DNA of 24,984 nt from a virus. Below are positions 6,469 to 23,711 of this stretch, in pieces (position 1 is the first letter of the stretch; each line of letters starts with the position of its first letter). The stretch covers positions 1 to 24,984 of IMG/VR virus record IMGVR_UViG_3300023184_000490; one strand, written 5' to 3'. The position numbers and the translations under genes were made by a program. Below the pieces are notes generated by a model. The model saw only the letters and a list, made by a program, of their open reading frames with translations. It searched no databases and had not been told where the DNA came from.

Positions 6469-6825
6469 ATGAAACAATCAGTGTTATCTGAAAATGAAGA
6501 AATATCTTCACAACACGAGGATATTGATAGTAAATTGTTTTATTTCTTAATGAGAAGACTTAAGGTTAGCCAACGAGAGTTAGGTAGTAATTTGGGTGAT
6601 TATGAGCCATTAAAAGTTACGGAATACAAATTTGAAGGATTCCCTGGTTATGGTTTTACAGATTATGTACCAAAAAAAAGGATGGAAACAAAAATCATTG
6701 AGATGTTATCTGAAAACGATATAACTGATTATATTTACGATATGGATGAACAAAATCCCGAAAGAGTTAAAATTGTTAAGACAATAAGAAAATTTTTAAA
6801 TTTTATGTTGTCAGATCAAAAATAA
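6469..6825 (+). CDS. Hypothetical phage protein, 118 aa
   Basis: Its ATG follows the previous stop with no spacing, so the two are translated together. The N-terminus MKQSVLSENEEISSQ contains an L-S-E site like those of the tagged proteins, but lacks the basic helix, so I do not count it as a clear member. The body has FPGYGFTDYVPKKRMETKI in the middle and a helical, charged C-terminus. No family is recognised. A strong promoter follows the stop. Confidence 0.65.
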   Translation: MKQSVLSENEEISSQHEDIDSKLFYFLMRRLKVSQRELGSNLGDYEPLKVTEYKFEGFPGYGFTDYVPKKRMETKIIEMLSENDITDYIYDMDEQNPERVKIVKTIRKFLNFMLSDQK

Positions 6826-6838
6826 ATTTGTATATTTG
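6807..6838 (+). promoter_or_regulatory. Host-like promoter GTTG-N20-TATATTTG
   Basis: A -33-like GTTG at 6807-6810 is spaced 20 bases from an exact -7 box at 6831-6838. Unlike the other boxes it leaves a leader of about 30 bases before the ATG at 6871. Confidence 0.65.
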
Positions 6839-6870
6839 TAGAAGTATTAATTAAAACAAAAAATAAAAAA

Positions 6871-7107
6871 ATGGGAAAAGGTTCAACAAAAGGTCGTTAC
6901 ATTTGTAAAGTTGGTTTTTTAGATGTTTATGCTGCAGACGCAATGAGAAAACAACCAGGTAGAGGTGATAAAAAAGAAGTTGGTTCAACTACTTATCAAA
7001 TCGTACATGGTAAGAATATTAAAGAGCGTGGAATGAAAACAAAAGACATGGCTATTGAAAAGGCTTTGGAGTTGTTAGGTGATAAGAAACTTAACTACGG
7101 ATTATAA
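6871..7107 (+). CDS. Small basic hypothetical protein, 78 aa
   Basis: A single-gene unit with its own host-like promoter and terminator, which suggests early or strong independent expression. The protein is basic and Gly/Lys-rich: MGKGSTKGRYICKVGF, AADAMRKQPGRGDKK, HGKNIKERGMKTKDM. The first residues recall the ribosomal protein Thx, but the rest does not. The sequence VGSTTYQIVHGKN could be a beta hairpin. Binding to nucleic acid is a reasonable guess from charge only. No family is recognised. Confidence 0.7.
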   Translation: MGKGSTKGRYICKVGFLDVYAADAMRKQPGRGDKKEVGSTTYQIVHGKNIKERGMKTKDMAIEKALELLGDKKLNYGL

Positions 7108-7111
7108 AAAG

Positions 7112-7138
7112 AAAGTCGGACGTAGATCCGACTTTTTT
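7112..7138. terminator. Bidirectional intrinsic terminator
   Basis: A perfect 9-bp stem (AAAGTCGGA / TCCGACTTT) with a 6-base loop is followed by T6 on the plus strand and, read on the minus strand, by a T-rich run. It separates the convergent genes at 6871 and 8108. Confidence 0.9.
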
Positions 7139-8108
7139 ATTTATTATAAGTTATATTAACCATTATATTTTGAGATACATCTCTTCCTAACATTTCTGTA
7201 AATGATCTTTCAAAGTAAGAGGTAACTGATGTCTTTAAATATTCTTTTGTGACACCAACCATATTATCTGTAAAGAAATCACCAGCTTCTCTATCTATCT
7301 TATTGTTATTTATCTTATCAACCTTATTAATGTTTATATCTACCTCAGGCATTTTTTCATTAAATCTTACACCTGTATAATAGAATGAAAGTTTTAATCT
7401 TGGAAACCAACCAGCTCTAATTGTTTGTAATGTACGTGAATCAATTAAGTTATCTATTGTTTCTGTAAACTTATTATTTTTATTTACAACTAACTGATCT
7501 GGTTTAATTGCTCCTTTTCTAATTTCAGACATTTCATCTTTAGAACAAATTAACATTTCTTTACCTATTTTACTATTCCATCTTGTTGGTCTAGTGTTGT
7601 TCATTTGTTTTCCTGTTGAAGATGAATATGATCCAGAAACCTCAAACCATTTTTTGTATTTGTAAATGTATATTGGGTACCAACCATATGAAAGAACAAT
7701 ATATCCCCAATCACTTTTAGCATCTTGTTCCCATCTACCTTCTAAGTTAGATCCCTTAAATGGTAGTAGTTCTGATACTCTTTCAGATGCGTTTGAGTTA
7801 GTTACTTTTTTAGCTTTTAAGTTGTGAACCTGTTTAAGTTCACTTGTTTTAGTGTCCTCATATCTACCATCTTCTCTATAGTTCTGAGTATACTTATTGT
7901 ATAGTTCAAAAAAGTCGTCAAGTTTAAAACCAAAAGATGACGCATTACTTTGAATAAACTTATTTATTTTTTGAGATGTAGGGTCAGCAGCTTCTTTATA
8001 TTCGTTTATAAATTTAAAGAATATTACTTCTCTTTTTGTAAACGCTTTATCGTCAACCTCCTCTAACAATACTTTTTTAATTATACTTTGTAATTCAATA
8101 TTTTTCAT
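7137..8108 (-). CDS. Tagged protein of unknown function, 323 aa
   Basis: The N-terminus MKNIELQSIIKKVLLEEVDD is a basic amphipathic helix ending in L-L-E/E, the tag shared by many proteins here. The body is not recognised. Residues about 24-110 look helical and charged; about 112-180 include aromatic strands (WGYIVLSYGWYPIYIYKYKKWFEV) and a Ser-rich loop. The C-terminus is mixed. There is no signal peptide or known catalytic motif. It is one of the few minus-strand genes, yet it has both the tag and the ATATTTATT box on its own strand, which shows that tag and box travel with the gene. I infer a packaged virion protein. Confidence 0.8.
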   Translation of the reverse strand: MKNIELQSIIKKVLLEEVDDKAFTKREVIFFKFINEYKEAADPTSQKINKFIQSNASSFGFKLDDFFELYNKYTQNYREDGRYEDTKTSELKQVHNLKAKKVTNSNASERVSELLPFKGSNLEGRWEQDAKSDWGYIVLSYGWYPIYIYKYKKWFEVSGSYSSSTGKQMNNTRPTRWNSKIGKEMLICSKDEMSEIRKGAIKPDQLVVNKNNKFTETIDNLIDSRTLQTIRAGWFPRLKLSFYYTGVRFNEKMPEVDININKVDKINNNKIDREAGDFFTDNMVGVTKEYLKTSVTSYFERSFTEMLGRDVSQNIMVNITYNK

Positions 8109-8550: not shown

Positions 8551-9216
8551 ATGAAAAGATTATTAACATCATTTTTTCTCTTTTTAGAACAATTTGATAC
8601 ACCTGAAGCTAGCGTTTCCTTTGACATGGAGAGTGATGGTATAAGTTGGTGGAATGAAAAAGTATGGATTAATATACTTCGTAAAGACGTTAACATACCA
8701 TCTAATTTTTTACCACTTTTTGATATGATAATAGATAACTATGGTCGTGAAATATGGGAAGGATCTATGAACGAAGAGGAAGACGATTATTATAGGGTAT
8801 CAATATCATTTAAAGTTGACCAAAGACTTATGATTATTACTAGTGTGATAACAGAAAATGGTGAAGAACCTGCTAGTGATGATTATAATTTAAATAATAA
8901 TGAGGATGTAAACACATTTTTGGATGAAAACAACCTTGACTCAATCATAATTGAATATCAGGGTGGTGGAGATGATGGGTATATTGAAAACAAAGGAAAA
9001 GATAATAATGATGATGAATATGATTTAAGTGCAGGAATGGAAGATGTTGTTTATTCTTATTTACAACAATCATTTGGTGGTTGGGAAAATAACGAAGGTG
9101 CCTACGGTAAAATTACGGTAACTAAAGAGGAAATTCAAATTGATCATATTTGGAATACTAGAGAAGATGTTGATAGTGATTTACGTCTTGTAATAAAACT
9201 TGAAGATGTAGAATGA
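8551..9216 (+). CDS. Acidic protein, DUF6878-like C-terminal half
   Basis: The protein is strongly acidic with an N-terminal hydrophobic start (LLTSFFLFLEQF) that probably packs into the fold. Residues about 129-200 hold IIIEYQGGGDDGYIEN ... VVYSYLQQSFGGWENNEGAYGKITV, the pattern Y-GGGD-G-I followed by GGWE-N-GA-G, which I associate with the DUF6878 type of unknown function. It overlaps the next gene by 4 bases (ATGA). The neighbour has the same order of elements (FIYLEDIGP / FWGGHDDYS / WWQDQGSEGEFHV), so the two are likely tandem paralogues. No catalytic residues are identifiable. Confidence 0.65.
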   Translation: MKRLLTSFFLFLEQFDTPEASVSFDMESDGISWWNEKVWINILRKDVNIPSNFLPLFDMIIDNYGREIWEGSMNEEEDDYYRVSISFKVDQRLMIITSVITENGEEPASDDYNLNNNEDVNTFLDENNLDSIIIEYQGGGDDGYIENKGKDNNDDEYDLSAGMEDVVYSYLQQSFGGWENNEGAYGKITVTKEEIQIDHIWNTREDVDSDLRLVIKLEDVE

Positions 9217-9887
9217 GCAATAAGATAAATAAAATAGCTCAAGCAATATTCATTTATCTTGAAGACATTGGTCCTTGTGAGGTATCGGTTCATTGTTATG
9301 ATGAAGCGATTGAAAATGTTGGATCATTCCAACCTACAATTTTGTTTGATGGACAAACTCATAATAAAAATAAAAAAGTACCTATGATTGGTACTTTTCG
9401 TAATTTTTTTATTCAATACACTGAAGACCATATGAGTGACTTAATTAGTCCTGTTGATTATGATATAAATGATTATCATGAATTAGTTTTTAAAATATAT
9501 CCTGAAGAAAAAAAGATAGACATTAAAAGTTATTGTTATTTTATTGAATACTCACCATTTGAATATAAATATGAGGAAACTCCTGAACATATTGCTGAAA
9601 TGATGGATGAAGATAATGTTAGTTGGTTTAAAGTTGAGTTTTGGGGTGGTCATGATGATTATTCATTTGATTATAGTAATATGGAAGGTGATGCAGATCC
9701 AGGTTTTGTTAGACAATTTGAGGACTATTTTGTTAAATATTTGGATAAAAAAACTTCAAAATCTTGGTGGCAGGATCAAGGATCTGAAGGGGAATTCCAT
9801 GTTAACAGGAACACAATTGATCTTGAATTAAAATTGAAGGATGAAGAGTTTAGATTTAGTGGATTTAACAAAGAAATTAAATTGTGA
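9213..9887 (+). CDS. Acidic paralogue of the preceding gene, 224 aa
   Basis: Residues about 10-27 (QAIFIYLEDIGPCEVSVH), about 145-155 (FKVEFWGGHDDYS) and about 185-205 (SWWQDQGSEGEFHVNRNTIDLEL) correspond in order and spacing to motifs of the 8551 protein (FLFLEQFDTPEASVSF, EYQGGGDDGYIE, GGWENNEGAYGKITVTKEEI). The identity is low, so the duplication is old. The protein is acidic and soluble. Its function is unknown. The ATGA overlap makes a coupled pair. Its stop overlaps the promoter box of the next gene. Confidence 0.65.
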   Translation: MSNKINKIAQAIFIYLEDIGPCEVSVHCYDEAIENVGSFQPTILFDGQTHNKNKKVPMIGTFRNFFIQYTEDHMSDLISPVDYDINDYHELVFKIYPEEKKIDIKSYCYFIEYSPFEYKYEETPEHIAEMMDEDNVSWFKVEFWGGHDDYSFDYSNMEGDADPGFVRQFEDYFVKYLDKKTSKSWWQDQGSEGEFHVNRNTIDLELKLKDEEFRFSGFNKEIKL

Positions 9888-9899: not shown

Positions 9900-11036
9900 A
9901 TGGGTAAAAATATAATTATTGAGGAATTAGATAGGATAAAAACTATAATGGGTATTTTGGTTGAACAAGAACAACCATTAGAACCATTAATAAGTGGTGA
10001 TTTAACTATTAAGTATAGTAATTTTGCGCCTGACACTAAATTCAAAAAAAACTATGTTTATATCAATGGTGTGTCTGACAAAGATATTACTAAACTAAAA
10101 GAATTAAAATTATCAAATACAAATAGTAAAGTTATATTAAAAAACTATAACACAAATGAAACGTTTGAATTTCCTCAAAAAGAAGTGAAGATAACAATAA
10201 ATGGTAAATTATATATTCTTGATACGGAGTATAATAAAATAATAAAGACATTAGAGACTCATGAAATTGAATTGAATAAGGATTTCCTAAAAAAAATGGA
10301 GTCAAAGTTTCCTGATTTTATGATTAAAGTAATGAGAGAAGTTTATCCTAATAATTGGGGTAAAAATGGTTTTACTGATAGTAATGGTATTTGTGATACT
10401 GAGGAAGGTTTAATAAATATTGAAGGGACTAATGTTCCTGGTCAAACTTGGTCAATACTTAATTACTTTGATACTAATCCTAAAGTAATACAACAATTAA
10501 TTGAATGGTTTTATAGTGGTGTGTTTAATAATGATGAAACACCACTTAAATCAAGTATTAAGGATTTTGAGAGTTGGATAACAACCAATAAAGAAGAAAT
10601 ATTCAAAGGAGATAATTTAAATAAACTAGTATCGCTTAACAGAACATCATATGAAAATGGAATTAAGAGTGAAAATACTACAATTGATAAATTAACTCAA
10701 TCACCATTTAACATTCCAAGAGAAAATATTAAACAATATTGTTCAGGATCAAGAGAAGATAGATTTGAGGCAAAAGACCTTAAAATAGAAACACCTGATG
10801 GAGATAAACACGTTCAAATAAAACCATTGGAATGGTTTAAGATTGATGAGAAAACAGGTGAATATATCGTTAAGACTTATTATATGAAAAACTATAAAGG
10901 TTATTTAAAAAGATACGGACTTAATTATATTGCGTTCATTAACAATAAAAATATATTAGTCTTTGATAATAAGGATTATGATCTTGATGGGTATCACTAT
11001 GTGAAGTTCAAGAATAAACCTATTGAAAGAATTTAA
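9900..11036 (+). CDS. Tagged protein with a possible PD-(D/E)xK-type nuclease end
   Basis: The N-terminal helix IIIEELDRIKTIMGILVEQE ends in L-V-E and is the variant tag. Residues about 30-120 are a polar, beta-rich region. The middle includes NNWGKNGFTDSNGICDTEEGLINI (about 152-175). The C-terminal part (284-378) reads REDRFEAKDLKI, TPDGDKHVQIKPLEWFK, YIVKTYYMK and LKRYGLNYIAFINNKNILVF. The E290/D293 then Q306-x-K308 arrangement in successive strands, followed by a conserved-looking helix, resembles the PD-(D/E)xK nuclease core with Q for E, but the assignment is tentative. If right, a nuclease delivered with the phage DNA would be expected to attack host DNA. The downstream gene begins 2 bases after the stop. 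Confidence 0.75.
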   Translation: MGKNIIIEELDRIKTIMGILVEQEQPLEPLISGDLTIKYSNFAPDTKFKKNYVYINGVSDKDITKLKELKLSNTNSKVILKNYNTNETFEFPQKEVKITINGKLYILDTEYNKIIKTLETHEIELNKDFLKKMESKFPDFMIKVMREVYPNNWGKNGFTDSNGICDTEEGLINIEGTNVPGQTWSILNYFDTNPKVIQQLIEWFYSGVFNNDETPLKSSIKDFESWITTNKEEIFKGDNLNKLVSLNRTSYENGIKSENTTIDKLTQSPFNIPRENIKQYCSGSREDRFEAKDLKIETPDGDKHVQIKPLEWFKIDEKTGEYIVKTYYMKNYKGYLKRYGLNYIAFINNKNILVFDNKDYDLDGYHYVKFKNKPIERI

Positions 11037-11038
11037 TT

Positions 11039-12532
11039 ATGAAAATAATAATAAGTGAAGAACAATTACATAGTTTAGTGAACCTTATCAAAGAAGATGA
11101 TGGTAAAATTAATGTTATGTTTGTTGGTGATAGTTTAAGTTCAGGTCCTGGTTATACTTGGAATTACCTTTTAGAAAATGCACATCCTGATTGGGATGTG
11201 ACTCATGTTGCAAAAGTAGGTATGAAAACATCTTGGATGTTAGATAATATGTTACCAAAGTTAAAGGAAAAAAAATACGATAAAGTATTTATATGGGGTG
11301 GTGGAAATGATGCGTTTGGACAGGTTTCTTTAGATAGTGTGGTATCAAATATACAAAGTATGGTTGATGCGGTTGTTAATCAGGGAGGACAAGCTTATGT
11401 GTTTATCGGGTACGATGCAAAATCAGTAATGTCCGATGATAAATTAAAACCAACTAAATATTGTGATAAACCATGTATGTTAAAAAGTCGTGATAGAACT
11501 ATTGAATTACAAGAAAAGGTTTTAAACGGTATTAAAAATGCGACTATAATACCTGCGGTTGTTGGAGATCCTAGCTGGACATCAGATGGTATTCACCCTA
11601 ACGGATCTGCACATAAGTTATTTAAAGATCAGGTTGAAAAGTACATTGGTACATCAACTAATAACAATAGAGGTACTAACACCGAAACCCAAAGTGCGGG
11701 ACAAAGACTTTTTAATTCTATTAAAACCATATTATCTAAAAAAGATAAAATGGAAAGTACTGCAACACCTGAAGACATTAAAACAATACAATTATCATTA
11801 AATGTTATTAATAAAGGTGATTTACCAATGACAGGTCAAATAAATGATGAAACCACTAAAACAATTGAAAACTATCAAGAAACAAATAATTTAGATAAAA
11901 CTGGTAAATTAAGTCCTGATACGACAGGTGGTATTATAAGTGATTTTTTATTTAAGATAACAGGTAAAAGATATACTTTTGGTAAAAGTGATAAGAATAC
12001 TAAAAACTTTAATCCAATGGTAATAGATAATCCAGGTATAGCAGTAAGGACTTTTCCATCCGACATTGAATCTAAGTTCAAAAATGCGGTTGGTGATAAT
12101 TATGATAGTTTTATTTCTGACGTTCAGGCGATTGGGTTAGATCCAAAAATTGCAATTAGACAATTATATACCGAATCTGCATTTAGTCCTGATGTTATGT
12201 CATGTAAAAGATCGTCAACTGCGGGAGCTAAAGGTATTGCACAGTTTATGCCAGGTACTTGGCCAACTTATGGTGGTGGTGGAAATCCTTGTAATATTAG
12301 TGACGCATTAAAGGCATATCCTAAGATGATGAAAGAATTGTTAAAAAAATTCCCAGGTAGATTGGACCTTTCAATTGCGGCTTATAATAGCGGACCTTAC
12401 GTACAAGTTCCAAAAAATTCAAAAAATTATGTTTACAATAATGCGTTAAAAAACAAAACACCTTTTACGGAACTTAAAGGTGTAATACCAGCTGAGTCTT
12501 ATAAATACGCATCATCTATACTCCAACCATAA
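11039..12532 (+). CDS. Tagged SGNH/GDSL esterase - PG-binding - lytic transglycosylase fusion
   Basis: Three enzymatic or binding modules follow a tag. Residues 1-20 (MKIIISEEQLHSLVNLIKED) end in I-K-E. Residues about 23-203 are an SGNH hydrolase: FVGDSLSSG with Ser32, IWGGGND with Asn90, and DGIHPN with Asp183 and His186. Residues about 244-302 look like a PG-binding type 1 domain (IKTIQLSLNVI...TGQINDETTKTIENYQ). Residues about 360-497 are an SLT-type lytic transglycosylase: IRQLYTES with catalytic Glu379, GIAQFMPGTW 399-408 and AAYNSGP 447-453. The combination should deacylate (for example, remove O-acetyl groups) and cut peptidoglycan, so it would help DNA entry or cell lysis. No signal peptide or holin is seen beside it, and the tag suggests virion delivery rather than secretion. 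Confidence 0.92.
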   Translation: MKIIISEEQLHSLVNLIKEDDGKINVMFVGDSLSSGPGYTWNYLLENAHPDWDVTHVAKVGMKTSWMLDNMLPKLKEKKYDKVFIWGGGNDAFGQVSLDSVVSNIQSMVDAVVNQGGQAYVFIGYDAKSVMSDDKLKPTKYCDKPCMLKSRDRTIELQEKVLNGIKNATIIPAVVGDPSWTSDGIHPNGSAHKLFKDQVEKYIGTSTNNNRGTNTETQSAGQRLFNSIKTILSKKDKMESTATPEDIKTIQLSLNVINKGDLPMTGQINDETTKTIENYQETNNLDKTGKLSPDTTGGIISDFLFKITGKRYTFGKSDKNTKNFNPMVIDNPGIAVRTFPSDIESKFKNAVGDNYDSFISDVQAIGLDPKIAIRQLYTESAFSPDVMSCKRSSTAGAKGIAQFMPGTWPTYGGGGNPCNISDALKAYPKMMKELLKKFPGRLDLSIAAYNSGPYVQVPKNSKNYVYNNALKNKTPFTELKGVIPAESYKYASSILQP

Positions 12533-19819: not shown

Positions 19820-20302
19820 ATGAATATTTTTCTATTAGATACAGATACAAGGAAATGTGCTCAATATCATTGCGATAAACACGTAGTAAAGATGATCCTT
19901 GAGACCGCACAACTATTGTGTGGTGTTCATCATATGACCGACCAAGTAACCGACCAAGTACCGTACAAGTTATCACACAAAAATCATCCCTGTGCAATAT
20001 GGTCAAGAGAATCTCTATCAAATTATCTATACCTATGTGATTTAGGTTTGGAGTTATGTAAAGAATATACATATCGTTATGGTAAAAGACATAAGTCTCA
20101 GGATGTAATAGAATGGTGTGTCACAAATAAACCCAACATTTGTGACAAAGAATTTACAGAGCCCGCACGAGCAATGCCAAATGAGTATAAAGTTGATAGT
20201 GTGGTAGAATCATATAGAAATTATTACATAGGTGAGAAATCAAAGATTGCCGTATGGAAGAATAGAGAGATACCTGAATGGTTTAAAATGCAATTAGTAT
20301 AA
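19820..20302 (+). CDS. Conserved phage/bacterial protein with HCDKHVVKM motif, 160 aa
   Basis: The sequence MNIFLLDTDTRKCAQYHCDKHVVKMILETAQLLCG (motif at 16-26) followed by HKNHPCAIWSRESLSNYLYL and later EYTYRYGKRHK, EPARAMPNEYK and VESYRNYYIGEKSKIAVWK is a family I know from many phage genomes but cannot name with confidence; copies are sometimes labelled as DNA-glycosylase-like. The many conserved His, Cys and Arg suggest an enzyme, possibly metal-dependent. A tandem 12-base duplication encodes TDQVTDQV at about 40-47. Its own strong host-type promoter implies expression early or independently of its neighbours. Confidence 0.8.
   Translation: MNIFLLDTDTRKCAQYHCDKHVVKMILETAQLLCGVHHMTDQVTDQVPYKLSHKNHPCAIWSRESLSNYLYLCDLGLELCKEYTYRYGKRHKSQDVIEWCVTNKPNICDKEFTEPARAMPNEYKVDSVVESYRNYYIGEKSKIAVWKNREIPEWFKMQLV
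19937..19960 (+). repeat. Perfect 12-bp tandem duplication in a coding region
   Basis: ACCGACCAAGTA occurs twice in direct succession and encodes TDQV twice; the next bases (CCGTACAAGT) are a partial third copy. It keeps the frame. The duplication is recent, since it is perfect. Confidence 0.9.
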
Positions 20303-20629: not shown

Positions 20630-20645
20630 GATTTCAATTAGTGAT

Positions 20646-20654
20646 ATATTTATT
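20646..20654 (+). promoter_or_regulatory. Putative phage promoter box ATATTTATT (20658 gene)
   Basis: It ends 3 bases before the ATG of MNLHE; the open frame upstream starting at 20628 would place the box inside the coding region, so 20658 is the likelier start. Confidence 0.5.
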
Positions 20655-20657
20655 ACT

Positions 20658-21503
20658 ATGAACTTACACGAAAATATACAAAGAATAAGATCAATGATGG
20701 GTCTCAGGGAAGAAACTGAGATAAAAGATATTGATATGGATATTTCTTACAAATACGATCCAAAAGTAATTGAAATTCAAAAAGAATTAACCAATAAAGG
20801 ATATTATATTGGAAAATTTGGTGACAGTAAAGATGGTATTGATGGAATATATGGCCCAATTACAAAGGCGGCACATGAATCTTACAAAAAAGAAATACCA
20901 CCAGAAGAGTTTGAATCAAAAAAAACTGAAATGGCTAAAGAGTATGTAGACGATGTGGATGTTAGTGATTTAAAAGAATTTAAATTTCATAAAATACCTG
21001 GAGGAACAAATAATTGGAGATCGGCTCAAATAACCGCAGATGTATTACCTTCAGTAATTAAAAAATATGGTATAAAAAATATTATCAGAATGAGTGGTGA
21101 TGACGAAAAACATAAAAGTGATCACCCTAAAACATCTTTAGATACTGAACAAAAAATATGTGAGGAAAATGATTGTACTTACCATTTTATTAATGCTCAT
21201 AGTGGATATAAATTAGGTAAAGGTTATACTAAATCAATACAAAAAATTAATGACATTTTAAATCAAGGTAATACATTAATTCACTGTGCTCACGGTGCTG
21301 ATAGAACTGGAGGAATGGTTGGTGCTTATCTTAAAAATAATGGTTATATGACAGATAAAGATGAATTATGGAAATATACCACACAATTTAATAGTTGGCA
21401 AAGCCTGATTAATAATAATAATTTTTTTGGAAGTGGTTACGACAAATATGCCGACGGATTTTACCCTATCTCAGAATTAAAAAATTCAAAATGGGTTAAA
21501 TAA
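20658..21503 (+). CDS. Tagged PG-binding / tyrosine-phosphatase-like protein
   Basis: The tag MNLHENIQRIRSMMGLREET (L-R-E/E) is followed at about 34-78 by a PG-binding type 1-like domain (IEIQKELTNKGYYIGKFG, GIDGIYGPITKAAHESY). Residues about 108-281 are a dual-specificity/tyrosine-phosphatase-like domain: NNWRSAQ (118-124), IKNIIRMSGDDE (139-150) and the signature HCAHGADRTGG (209-219) with catalytic Cys210 and Arg216, matching HCx5R. A phosphatase attached to a wall-binding domain is unusual. I infer that it is packaged and enters the host, where it might remove phosphate from proteins or act at the wall. The general acid is not obvious. Confidence 0.85.
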   Translation: MNLHENIQRIRSMMGLREETEIKDIDMDISYKYDPKVIEIQKELTNKGYYIGKFGDSKDGIDGIYGPITKAAHESYKKEIPPEEFESKKTEMAKEYVDDVDVSDLKEFKFHKIPGGTNNWRSAQITADVLPSVIKKYGIKNIIRMSGDDEKHKSDHPKTSLDTEQKICEENDCTYHFINAHSGYKLGKGYTKSIQKINDILNQGNTLIHCAHGADRTGGMVGAYLKNNGYMTDKDELWKYTTQFNSWQSLINNNNFFGSGYDKYADGFYPISELKNSKWVK

Positions 21504-21861: not shown

Positions 21862-22638
21862 ATGAACCTACAAGAAAACATACAAAGAATAAGACAAATG
21901 ATGATCTCTGAGGAGATGGTTCAATCAGATGCTTGGAAATCAATTAAACAAACTTTAGATATTCTTAAAAAGAAAAAGAAAGTTTTATTATTAAGTTGTT
22001 CCAATAGATATAATTTTGATGAAAAGAATATAGACATACCAAAGTCCAAGATGATTGCAATGTACTTGAACGATGAGTTGGGAGATAAGTCAGTATTAAT
22101 TGATGTCCCTGAACTTAAAATACTTCCTTGTGAAGGTAATGTATCAAGAAAAGATGGTAACTCTTGTGGGTTATTAAAAGCCGCTCTTAAAGATAAGAAA
22201 AAGAACCCATCAGGAGATCACAGATGTTGGGTTAACATCAACGAACCTTCAGATGAGTTGTGGAAGATATCAAAAGAGTTATTTGAGTCAGACGCAGTAA
22301 TATTCTTTAGTTCAATAAGATGGGGACAAACAAATATGTATTATCAAAATTTAATTGAAAGGTTAAATTGGTTGGAGAATAGACATACAACACTGGGTGA
22401 GTCTAACATTATCAAAGATATTGAAACAGGATTCATTTGTGTTGGTCAAAATTGGAATGGAGAAGTGGTAACCAAAACACAAAAAGAAGTACACGAATTC
22501 TACGGGTTCAAACCAAACGATAGTTTATATTGGAATTGGCAATACACCAAAGATGCGAATGATGAGACACAAAAATCATATAAAGCGTCACATAATAAAT
22601 TTATAAAGGACACTAAACTTCCTGAAATAGAAGAGTAA
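21862..22638 (+). CDS. Tagged flavodoxin-like (NADPH-dependent FMN reductase-type) protein
   Basis: The tag MNLQENIQRIRQMMISEEM ends in I-S-E/E and is almost the same as that of 20658. Residues about 40-200 fit the flavodoxin-like fold: KKVLLLSCSNRYNF (40-52, the phosphate-binding loop position), KMIAMYLNDELGDKSVLIDVPELKILPC, then ESDAVIFFSSIRWGQTNMYYQNLIERLNW (142-170), which holds the flavin-loop-like SSIRWGQ, and FICVGQNWNG (191-200). It may reduce FMN or quinones; the many Cys (90, 102, 122) are unusual. The tag implies packaging, for which redox defence of the host or the DNA would be a possible reason. The stop overlaps the next start in TAATG. Confidence 0.75.
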   Translation: MNLQENIQRIRQMMISEEMVQSDAWKSIKQTLDILKKKKKVLLLSCSNRYNFDEKNIDIPKSKMIAMYLNDELGDKSVLIDVPELKILPCEGNVSRKDGNSCGLLKAALKDKKKNPSGDHRCWVNINEPSDELWKISKELFESDAVIFFSSIRWGQTNMYYQNLIERLNWLENRHTTLGESNIIKDIETGFICVGQNWNGEVVTKTQKEVHEFYGFKPNDSLYWNWQYTKDANDETQKSYKASHNKFIKDTKLPEIEE

Positions 22639-23711
22639 TGAACTTACAAGAATCCATAAGAAGAATATTAAGGAAACCAGTTAATGAATCTACATATTTT
22701 CGTAGAAGAGTTGATATGAGTACAATAGATAAAAAATTCTTTACAAATTTAAATATTGTTACCGATAAATATTTAAGAAAACATAATAATGGACAATATT
22801 GTAGTTTTAATGTGTTTAGAACTACTGTTATATCATATCTTATTGATGATTATCGTGATAATTTATCTGATAATGATTATGATAATTTCCCATATGATGA
22901 GGTTTATAATTTTCTTTTAAATCATTTTTATGACAAGATTAAAGATAGATATAACATTATGTTTGGTGCTGACCTACAAGAATCCATAAGAAAAGTATTA
23001 AAAGAAGAATCAATACAAGATAGTTTGTATGATATGATTAATACTGATGGTATTGAACGTGCGGCAAAAACTGTGGGTGGTTTAACAAGGTTGGCAAAGA
23101 TATTAGAACTTGATCTTGACGACGTAGATACTCAAGAAATGTTAGTTAAAAATTTTATTTACCATACTAAATTTGATCAGATTGATGTGTTATTTATTGA
23201 GGTTAGATCATCTGCTAGTGGAGGTAAGATTCTTACCATTAATTTAAAAACTGATGATACTGCGTCAAATGTAACAAGTTGGTATGTGCATGAGATATGT
23301 AATTATCTTAATAAAAAATTATTTCCTTTTAAAGTACGACCATCGTGGCATCCTGTTTTCGGATTGAGTGGGTGTAAAATATTTTTAAATGCTGAGATAG
23401 TTGATGATGAAGAAAATGATGAGGAATTAATGGAATCTAAACAGAAAGGACCAAGAGAATTACCAAATGAATTAAAACGAAGATCGCAACGTTTAGATGA
23501 TCTAATTGTAAAGGTAATAAAAGATATTGAATTATGTCAGTATAATACACCTGATGAGTTTATTTATGTAGTTGTGGACGAACTTATATGGGAGTTAAGA
23601 GATGACTACCATGGTGATCTTAATAAGTTAGATAAATTTGATGTGACACAATATGTATATGACTTCAAATACCGTGAGTTAGAAGATTATTTTCTTGAGA
23701 GTTGTCAATAA
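22638..23711 (+). CDS. Polyprotein-like tagged protein with internal tag, 357 aa
   Basis: The order is tag (MNLQESIRRILRKPVNES, 1-18), helical module A (about 19-108: FRRRVDMSTIDKKFFTNLNI and later DEVYNFLLNHFYDKIKDRY), a second, internal tag (DLQESIRKVLKEES, 112-125), module B (about 128-260: DSLYDMINTDGIERAAKTVGG, LTRLAKILELD, strands), an L-M-E-S site (264-267), and module A again (about 272-357: ELKRRSQRLDDLIVKVIKDI). The two tags share 18 identical bases (TACAAGAATCCATAAGAA). Module A is shared with 14403 and 16977. Each junction has (L/V)-x-E followed by Ser or Glu, so a prohead-type protease could release three mature proteins. Function is unknown; fusion of two tagged genes is the simplest origin. 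Confidence 0.8.
   Translation: MNLQESIRRILRKPVNESTYFRRRVDMSTIDKKFFTNLNIVTDKYLRKHNNGQYCSFNVFRTTVISYLIDDYRDNLSDNDYDNFPYDEVYNFLLNHFYDKIKDRYNIMFGADLQESIRKVLKEESIQDSLYDMINTDGIERAAKTVGGLTRLAKILELDLDDVDTQEMLVKNFIYHTKFDQIDVLFIEVRSSASGGKILTINLKTDDTASNVTSWYVHEICNYLNKKLFPFKVRPSWHPVFGLSGCKIFLNAEIVDDEENDEELMESKQKGPRELPNELKRRSQRLDDLIVKVIKDIELCQYNTPDEFIYVVVDELIWELRDDYHGDLNKLDKFDVTQYVYDFKYRELEDYFLESCQ

Follow-up and report, generated by a model that had tools for sequence, protein, structure and literature searches.

The closest described systems for the gene analysed here are found among head-packaged phage proteins and Cys-based phosphatases. Short leaders ending in L/I-x-E are described as capsid-targeting sequences of phage T4 in passages of PMC9026906 and PMC3012670, and passages of PMC9026906 also give L/I-x-E as the cutting motif of the T4 prohead protease gp21 and report that the internal proteins of T4 end up in the host cytoplasm upon ejection. 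In the T4 record the same cleavage site was found in the gp21 substrates IpI, gp24 and gp23. Among phosphatases, an aspartic acid in the P-loop is of the kind found in the lipid-active enzymes MptpB and myotubularin (part of PMC3091653), and the phosphatase passages in PMC7824862 name HAD, calcineurin-like and HD enzymes. Dual-specificity phosphatases (DSPs) of phages are already annotated in databases, namely a SIW14-like Caudovirales protein and a PHROGs phage DSP family (E 0.028), and thus the phosphatase domain alone is not new. In the literature searched, by titles and abstract openings, we found no description of a bacteriophage virion tyrosine phosphatase, nor of the coupling of a phosphatase to wall enzymes, a tag and a lysozyme slot; as far as this literature goes, that coupling is what is new in this study.

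The gene under study lies in a virus fragment of 24,984 bases, the whole of which was analysed and is called the window. It starts with ATG and its product, P0001, has three parts (Table 1). The first-pass annotation of this gene had pointed out HCAHGADRTGG with Cys210 and Arg216 and an upstream RSAQ, and all were found in the translation at the residues it gave (HCAHGADR from 209 and RSAQ from 121). The bare HCx5R pattern was dropped as evidence: a six-frame translation of the window contains it six times, and alone it says nothing; it also appeared in 52 of 20,000 shuffles of P0001. The longer motif HCxxGxxR[TS]G appeared in 0 of 20,000 shuffles. Analysis of P0001 with Pfam revealed DSPc (E 5.9e-6, 26.6 bits; cut-off 33.5, not reached), Y_phosphatase3 at 22.5 bits, barely over the cut-off of 22.2, and PG_binding_1 at residues 35-72 (E 2.4e-4, 21.7 bits; gathering cut-off of 23 missed). 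A PG_binding_1-like domain had been proposed earlier, and such a stretch is present but weak. The nearest relative (L002:5001-5855, on a contig of 74.8 kb) is 89% identical over its full length and keeps the tag, the PG-binding segment and the phosphatase. The dN/dS values between the two genes are 0.063/0.211 for the whole gene, 0.015/0.232 for the PG-binding segment and linker and 0.082/0.149 for the phosphatase part, which is under weaker constraint.

Table 1. Features of the P0001 gene and of tagged genes in the same window (window coordinates).
Feature	Position	Strand	Basis
Tagged GDSL-PG_binding-SLT protein	11039..12532	+	Pfam 1.3e-11, 1.5e-4, 2.3e-9; IKED at 17
Whole gene: tag, PG-binding-like segment and Cys-phosphatase domain, 281 aa	20658..21503	+	Translation; 89% identical relative; AlphaFold model
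N-terminal tag, residues 1-19, helix 3-13, putative prohead-protease site L16-R-E18	20658..20714	+	Sequence; model helix; motif statistics
PG_binding_1-like segment, residues 35-72	20760..20873	+	Pfam E 2.4e-4, just below cut-off; AlphaFold pLDDT low to middling
Cys-phosphatase domain, residues 101-281	20958..21500	+	Family alignment; fold matches over residues 103-272
RSAQ motif (residues 121-124), with R121 present in all 42 sequences	21018..21029	+	Sequence; alignment
P-loop HCAHGADRTGG, residues 209-219 (C210, D215, R216)	21282..21314	+	Sequence; alignment; model
C-terminal region with the family's own signature W-x-Y...N-x-W (W238 through W247 and beyond)	21366..21398	+	At least 90% conserved in alignment
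Next gene but one, same tag family (ISEE at 15)	21862..22638	+	Sequence
Same tag at gene start and second tag-like stretch LQESIRKVLKEESIQD inside	22638..23711	+	Sequence

Relatives of the phosphatase domain were gathered with a scan for HCxHGxDRTG, whose matches are a lower bound, and with a second, profile-based scan (71 loci) that drew in addition on a separate pattern from the C-terminus. At 304 viral loci, at least 103 distinct domain sequences were found at E 1e-6 and at least 48 below 1e-15. In an alignment of 42 sequences, R121, H209, C210, G213, D215, R216, T217 and G218 were found to be invariant, some P-loop positions being fixed by the first search pattern, and E164, W238, Y240, N245 and W247 are kept in at least 90%. 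H212 is not required, since the relative L350 reads HCTAGADRTG; this sequence retains the equivalents of C210, D215 and R216. In the AlphaFold model (P0001 with 41 relatives) the block from residue 101 onward has a pLDDT of 89-98, and a strand (206-209) enters a loop bearing C210 and R216, with a helix (215-227) behind it. The structural matches of residues 103-272 were PFA-DSP1 (Z 14.2), SIW14 (Z 14.0), the DUF442 protein 3gxh (Z 13.6) and TpbA (Z 13.1), which also had the best Foldseek E. Judged by the model, the ORF has a confident Cys-phosphatase fold with P-loop geometry for Cys210 and Arg216, and by predicted fold and motif (HCx5R[S/T], present as HCAHGADRT at 209-217) P0001 belongs to the Cys-based PTP/DSP superfamily. 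The first-pass annotation had suggested structure prediction and comparison with dual-specificity phosphatases, and the fold matched (Z about 14 for PFA-DSP1 and SIW14, 13 for TpbA); it had also held that Cys210 and Arg216 failing to form a phosphate loop would speak against it, and the model places both residues as in such a loop. Its term "tyrosine-phosphatase-like" is borne out for a phosphatase-fold domain with P-loop geometry, but "tyrosine" is too specific, D215 being as in lipid-active MptpB and myotubularin. Following the P-loop Asp of these two enzymes, D215 is probably the general acid.

The tag MN[LFI]xE[NS]IxxI heads 161 distinct ORFs of the gathered viral loci, representing 100 clusters at 60% identity, and the sequence beyond it is barely common to them (mean column identity of 5% in the 98 aligned). 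An [ILV]xE motif occurs at residues 11-24 in 92 of the 100 clusters, compared with 25/100, 25/99, 19/97 and 24/97 in equally wide windows further along; the leader of P0001 is likewise a short N-terminal segment ending in L-x-E. L006 has the tag without the motif, and the motif at residue 31 of L352 is probably a chance occurrence. With gene starts taken crudely as the first ATG, the remaining 883 genes at 112 tag loci have an [IL]xE beginning within residues 7-22 in 377 cases (43%) and within 41-56 in 171 (19%); at control loci, 178/954 genes (19%) have one within 7-22. [IL]xK is likewise enriched near N-termini (312 vs 189 of 883), which means that part of the [IL]xE signal comes from composition; no enrichment near the N-termini of tag-locus genes was found for [IL]xD and E.[IL].

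Among tag contigs larger than 100 kb, 19 of 22 have a Peptidase S77 match that passes its cut-off, compared with two of 17 controls; the Fisher value of 3.5e-6 is optimistic because the tag contigs are related and not independent (G002, G003 and G012, for example, come from loci L006, L032 and L148 with near-identical phosphatase regions). Such a match was also found in six of 10 further large contigs that carry the phosphatase and in 0/1 for the 74.8 kb contig of L002. The corresponding numbers for Gp23 are 17/22, 8/10 and 0/1, with 2/17 in controls. Judged from sequence, the tag is real and modular and its properties fit a T4-type capsid-targeting sequence. The "putative packaging tag" of the first reading thus stands as a modular leader which matches such sequences in its [ILV]xE motif and S77 association; packaging itself is something we infer.

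The tag cargo of 98 of the 100 clusters was scanned with Pfam, two short fragments being left out. ART-PolyVal was found in three, pterin dehydratase, shikimate-kinase-like, PG_binding_1 and DSPc in two each, and the majority had no match. The cargo start of tagged ORFs of L127, L184, L151, L124, L155, L189 and others resembles ADP-ribosyltransferases, a parallel to the packaged Alt of T4. Pterin_4a (pterin-4a-carbinolamine dehydratase) reached 5.5e-24 at best in its 2/98, and loci L158 and L171 were named by eye. The phosphatase was absent from all five tag contigs picked regardless of it (G005, G008, G014, G017 and G023), and it is therefore accessory.

Among the tagged genes of the window, the product of 11039-12532 is likely a companion wall enzyme of the phosphatase gene, and 22638-23711 looks, from its sequence, as if two tagged genes had fused. 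The contig of L002 encodes a VanY protein (3.6e-6) with an N-terminus similar to the tag. On L002, also, a stretch similar to LQESIRKVLKEESIQD opens a separate gene (6720-7205). Elsewhere in the window, 1419-2528 encodes a thymidylate synthase (PHROG 5.5e-108) and 19820-20302 a PHROG 624/Pyr_excise protein (9.7e-64) that is almost identical in L002. The element TATATTTAT was found upstream of 21/145 tagged ORFs and 66/835 others, e.g. at window positions 20643-20657; it may be a late-promoter element, and as its enrichment is weak it was left out of the argument.

Of 21 distinct family proteins scanned over their full length with Pfam, seven matched a PG-binding or hydrolase family at E<=0.01; in two of these (L088 and L097) the match does not reach the Pfam cut-off, and neither does that of P0001. 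In L065 an M23 (1.5e-23) and a PG_binding domain (8e-14, 52 bits) are fused to the phosphatase behind a tag-like N-terminus, and PG_binding with a tag-like N-terminus is also found in L082, L345 and L091. Likewise behind tag-like N-termini, muramidase-like domains are fused to it in L088 and L097 (weak matches) and SGNH-like domains in L034, L006 and others; the name SGNH-like was chosen because the signs of this domain in L034-type proteins are limited to conservation at GDS, GTN and a His, plus a profile match of E 0.018, a weak one, to an Endoglucanase E chain. The N-termini of 46 of 48 proteins were surveyed, the truncated L016 and L316 being dropped and the starts of L292, L106, L310, L339 and L109 being set by eye. 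Eight of the 46 passed the hydropathy threshold, none of them with [ILV]xE at 8-32, compared with 28 of the other 38 (Fisher 1.7e-4). L328 has a lipoprotein-like start, and P0001 has no hydrophobic N-terminus (over its first 70 residues, hydropathy peaks at -0.21). By our tally, 13 of 46 relatives have no recognised partner. Near an anchored phosphatase relative in L335, the minus strand encodes an endolysin-like protein with a tag-like start (8780-9652; phrog_181, 2.8e-29) and an SLT protein (10073-10627; 1.4e-13).

In four marine virus groups (L340, L339, L349 and L337), distant relatives without the tag, the phosphatase replaces the C-terminus of tandem paralogues. L340:5269-6762 and its neighbour are 54% identical over 212 residues, and the C-terminus of the neighbour is not a phosphatase but Phage_lysozyme2 (1.4e-7, above cut-off). 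The paralogue C-termini in L339, L349 and L337 are unnamed or weakly named by Pfam (Glucosaminidase, 0.017, in L339). L005 carries a pair of paralogues of this type, of which one matches VanY weakly (0.014), at the same locus as a divergent, truncated phosphatase ORF; this case was not counted. The carrier domain of the four groups was considered as T4 gp5 and rejected: hhalign against a single gp5 sequence gave a probability of 0.3, and 0.05 for the gene behind the carrier domain. T4 gp5 starts with an OB-fold, and the AlphaFold model of the carrier domain (pLDDT 63.3, moderate) matched OB-fold proteins with a best Z of 6.5 and a best Foldseek E of 0.2. Baseplate placement of these proteins is therefore a guess.

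A tblastn search of 50,697 phage records with five queries (P0001, the L034 and L047 domains and full-length L340 and L082) found no relative of the phosphatase domain, so this phosphatase is not shown by cultured phages. The L082 query matched lysin/endolysin genes only, via query residues 140-297 in the best 15 of 67 matches. A bacterial origin was considered and rejected: 52 bacterial genome loci matched with 22-78% identity in the best segment, and since the matched query residues lie within 6-152 of 181, the C-terminal end of the domain was not seen in these bacterial matches. A role in defence or counter-defence was likewise rejected, PADLOC giving no match for four proteins.

Overall, our analysis suggests that the gene is accessory cargo, probably of a T4-like phage, and encodes an envelope-acting phosphatase delivered by the virion, a reading whose chances we judge to be about even. 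The tag would draw P0001 into the prohead core, where cleavage behind Glu18 by an S77 prohead protease would release the PG-binding/phosphatase protein, which would exit the virion alongside the DNA. The PG-binding segment would then hold the protein at the wall, and phosphate would be removed from the envelope with C210 as nucleophile, R216 binding the phosphate and probably D215 as general acid. Candidate targets are a lipid-linked sugar, the phosphate of a lipid or of LPS, and a decorated glycan, and the outcome would be easier entry or an envelope change early in infection. Counting against this reading are the contig of L002, which has no S77 or Gp23, the PG_binding_1 match under the cut-off in P0001, the [IL]xK enrichment, the relatedness of the tag contigs and the fact that the paralogue evidence comes from distant untagged relatives. 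Delivery like that of T4 internal proteins, which go to the cytoplasm, would moreover carry P0001 past the periplasm.

One alternative is a protein that is packaged, injected into the cytoplasm and acts there on host phosphoproteins, signalling or capsule control, resembling T4 Alt, a modifying enzyme that is injected, but with phosphatase chemistry. T4 head-packaged proteins including Alt reach the cytoplasm (passages of PMC9026906), other tag cargo is ART-like or kinase-like and protein phosphatases are among the fold neighbours, but P0001 has a PG-binding segment and its relatives have wall-enzyme fusions, membrane anchors and the lysozyme slot, and we regard this alternative as unlikely. 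The wall-enzyme fusions, anchors and lysozyme slot, with the tagged GDSL-PG_binding-SLT protein and the VanY protein, together favour the envelope over cytosolic signalling. The effect on host signalling or capsule control proposed in the first-pass annotation therefore found no support, the relatives occurring with peptidoglycan hydrolases, membrane or lipoprotein-like anchors and the tail-lysozyme slot. The resemblance of many relatives to endolysin-type or anchored proteins could also mean a lysis-stage envelope enzyme made in the cell, with the tag serving another use such as membrane association via an amphipathic helix. This is doubtful, as the tag occurs on 100 clusters with unrelated cargo (ART-like, kinase-like, pterin dehydratase) ill-suited to lysis and comes with the [ILV]xE site and the S77 association. 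A pseudophosphatase that merely binds a phosphorylated envelope ligand would agree with the lower constraint on the phosphatase part between the P0001 and L002 genes. We consider it very improbable, since C210, D215 and R216 are present in 42/42 aligned sequences. Some P-loop positions were fixed by the search pattern, but the second scan drew on its C-terminal pattern as well and L350 retains all three residues.

Within the envelope reading, a narrower and quite unlikely version is that of a dedicated phage envelope phosphatase which clears phosphate decoration that blocks murein hydrolases, for example at MurNAc C6 or on a lipid-linked precursor, acting jointly with the fused SGNH-like or lytic domains. 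Lytic transglycosylases need a free MurNAc C6. If this version is true, the hosts bear an unrecognised phosphorylated wall or envelope modification relevant to phage entry. More broadly, if the envelope reading is true, phages use for cell entry, in the slots of lysozymes, a class of enzymes whose best-known role is in signalling, and the substrate of the phosphatase would point to a phosphate of the envelope with a bearing on infection. The tag occurs on 100 clusters of uncultured, mostly T4-like phages, and if it is a head-loading signal, many unknown virion proteins would be named at once.

Comparison with known systems revealed partial likeness in each case. In L340 the phosphatase stands where its paralogue has a tail lysozyme domain, which recalls the virion-carried wall enzymes among polyvalent proteins and tail lysozymes; the word "phosphatase" is absent from the main text of the polyvalent-protein paper PMC5512222, and the L340-type carrier domain shows no sequence link to T4 gp5 in the single-sequence test. 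The atypical dual-specificity phosphatases PFA-DSP1 and SIW14 are like P0001 in fold and HCx5R P-loop; however, identity is only 13-16%, the matches have no tag or PG-binding segment and W-x-Y...N-x-W is a feature of the phage family. Enzymes of the MptpB type (HCXXGKDR) have the catalytic Asp at P-loop position 6, as D215 in P0001, but a Lys at position 5 (part of PMC3091653), where P0001 has Ala214; going by its sequence, P0001 is not an MptpB-type enzyme, the P-loop Lys being missing. T4 IpI and Alt likewise have a short N-terminal segment ending in I/L-x-E before diverse cargo, and S77 is found in the tag phages; the leader of IpI differs from the tag in sequence, the cargo here is a phosphatase and its packaging is putative. 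TpbA, a periplasmic DUSP of Pseudomonas aeruginosa, shares with P0001 the fold and the HCxHG start of the P-loop (HCKHGNNR in TpbA, part of PMC4409338), and its location is comparable to the place proposed for P0001. TpbA carries a signal peptide and its target is TpbB, whereas P0001 lacks a hydrophobic N-terminus and has Asp at P-loop position 6. By these sequence features P0001 is not a TpbA-type exported enzyme, and several of its relatives do have hydrophobic starts. P0001 may thus resemble TpbA in location and the T4 internal proteins in delivery.
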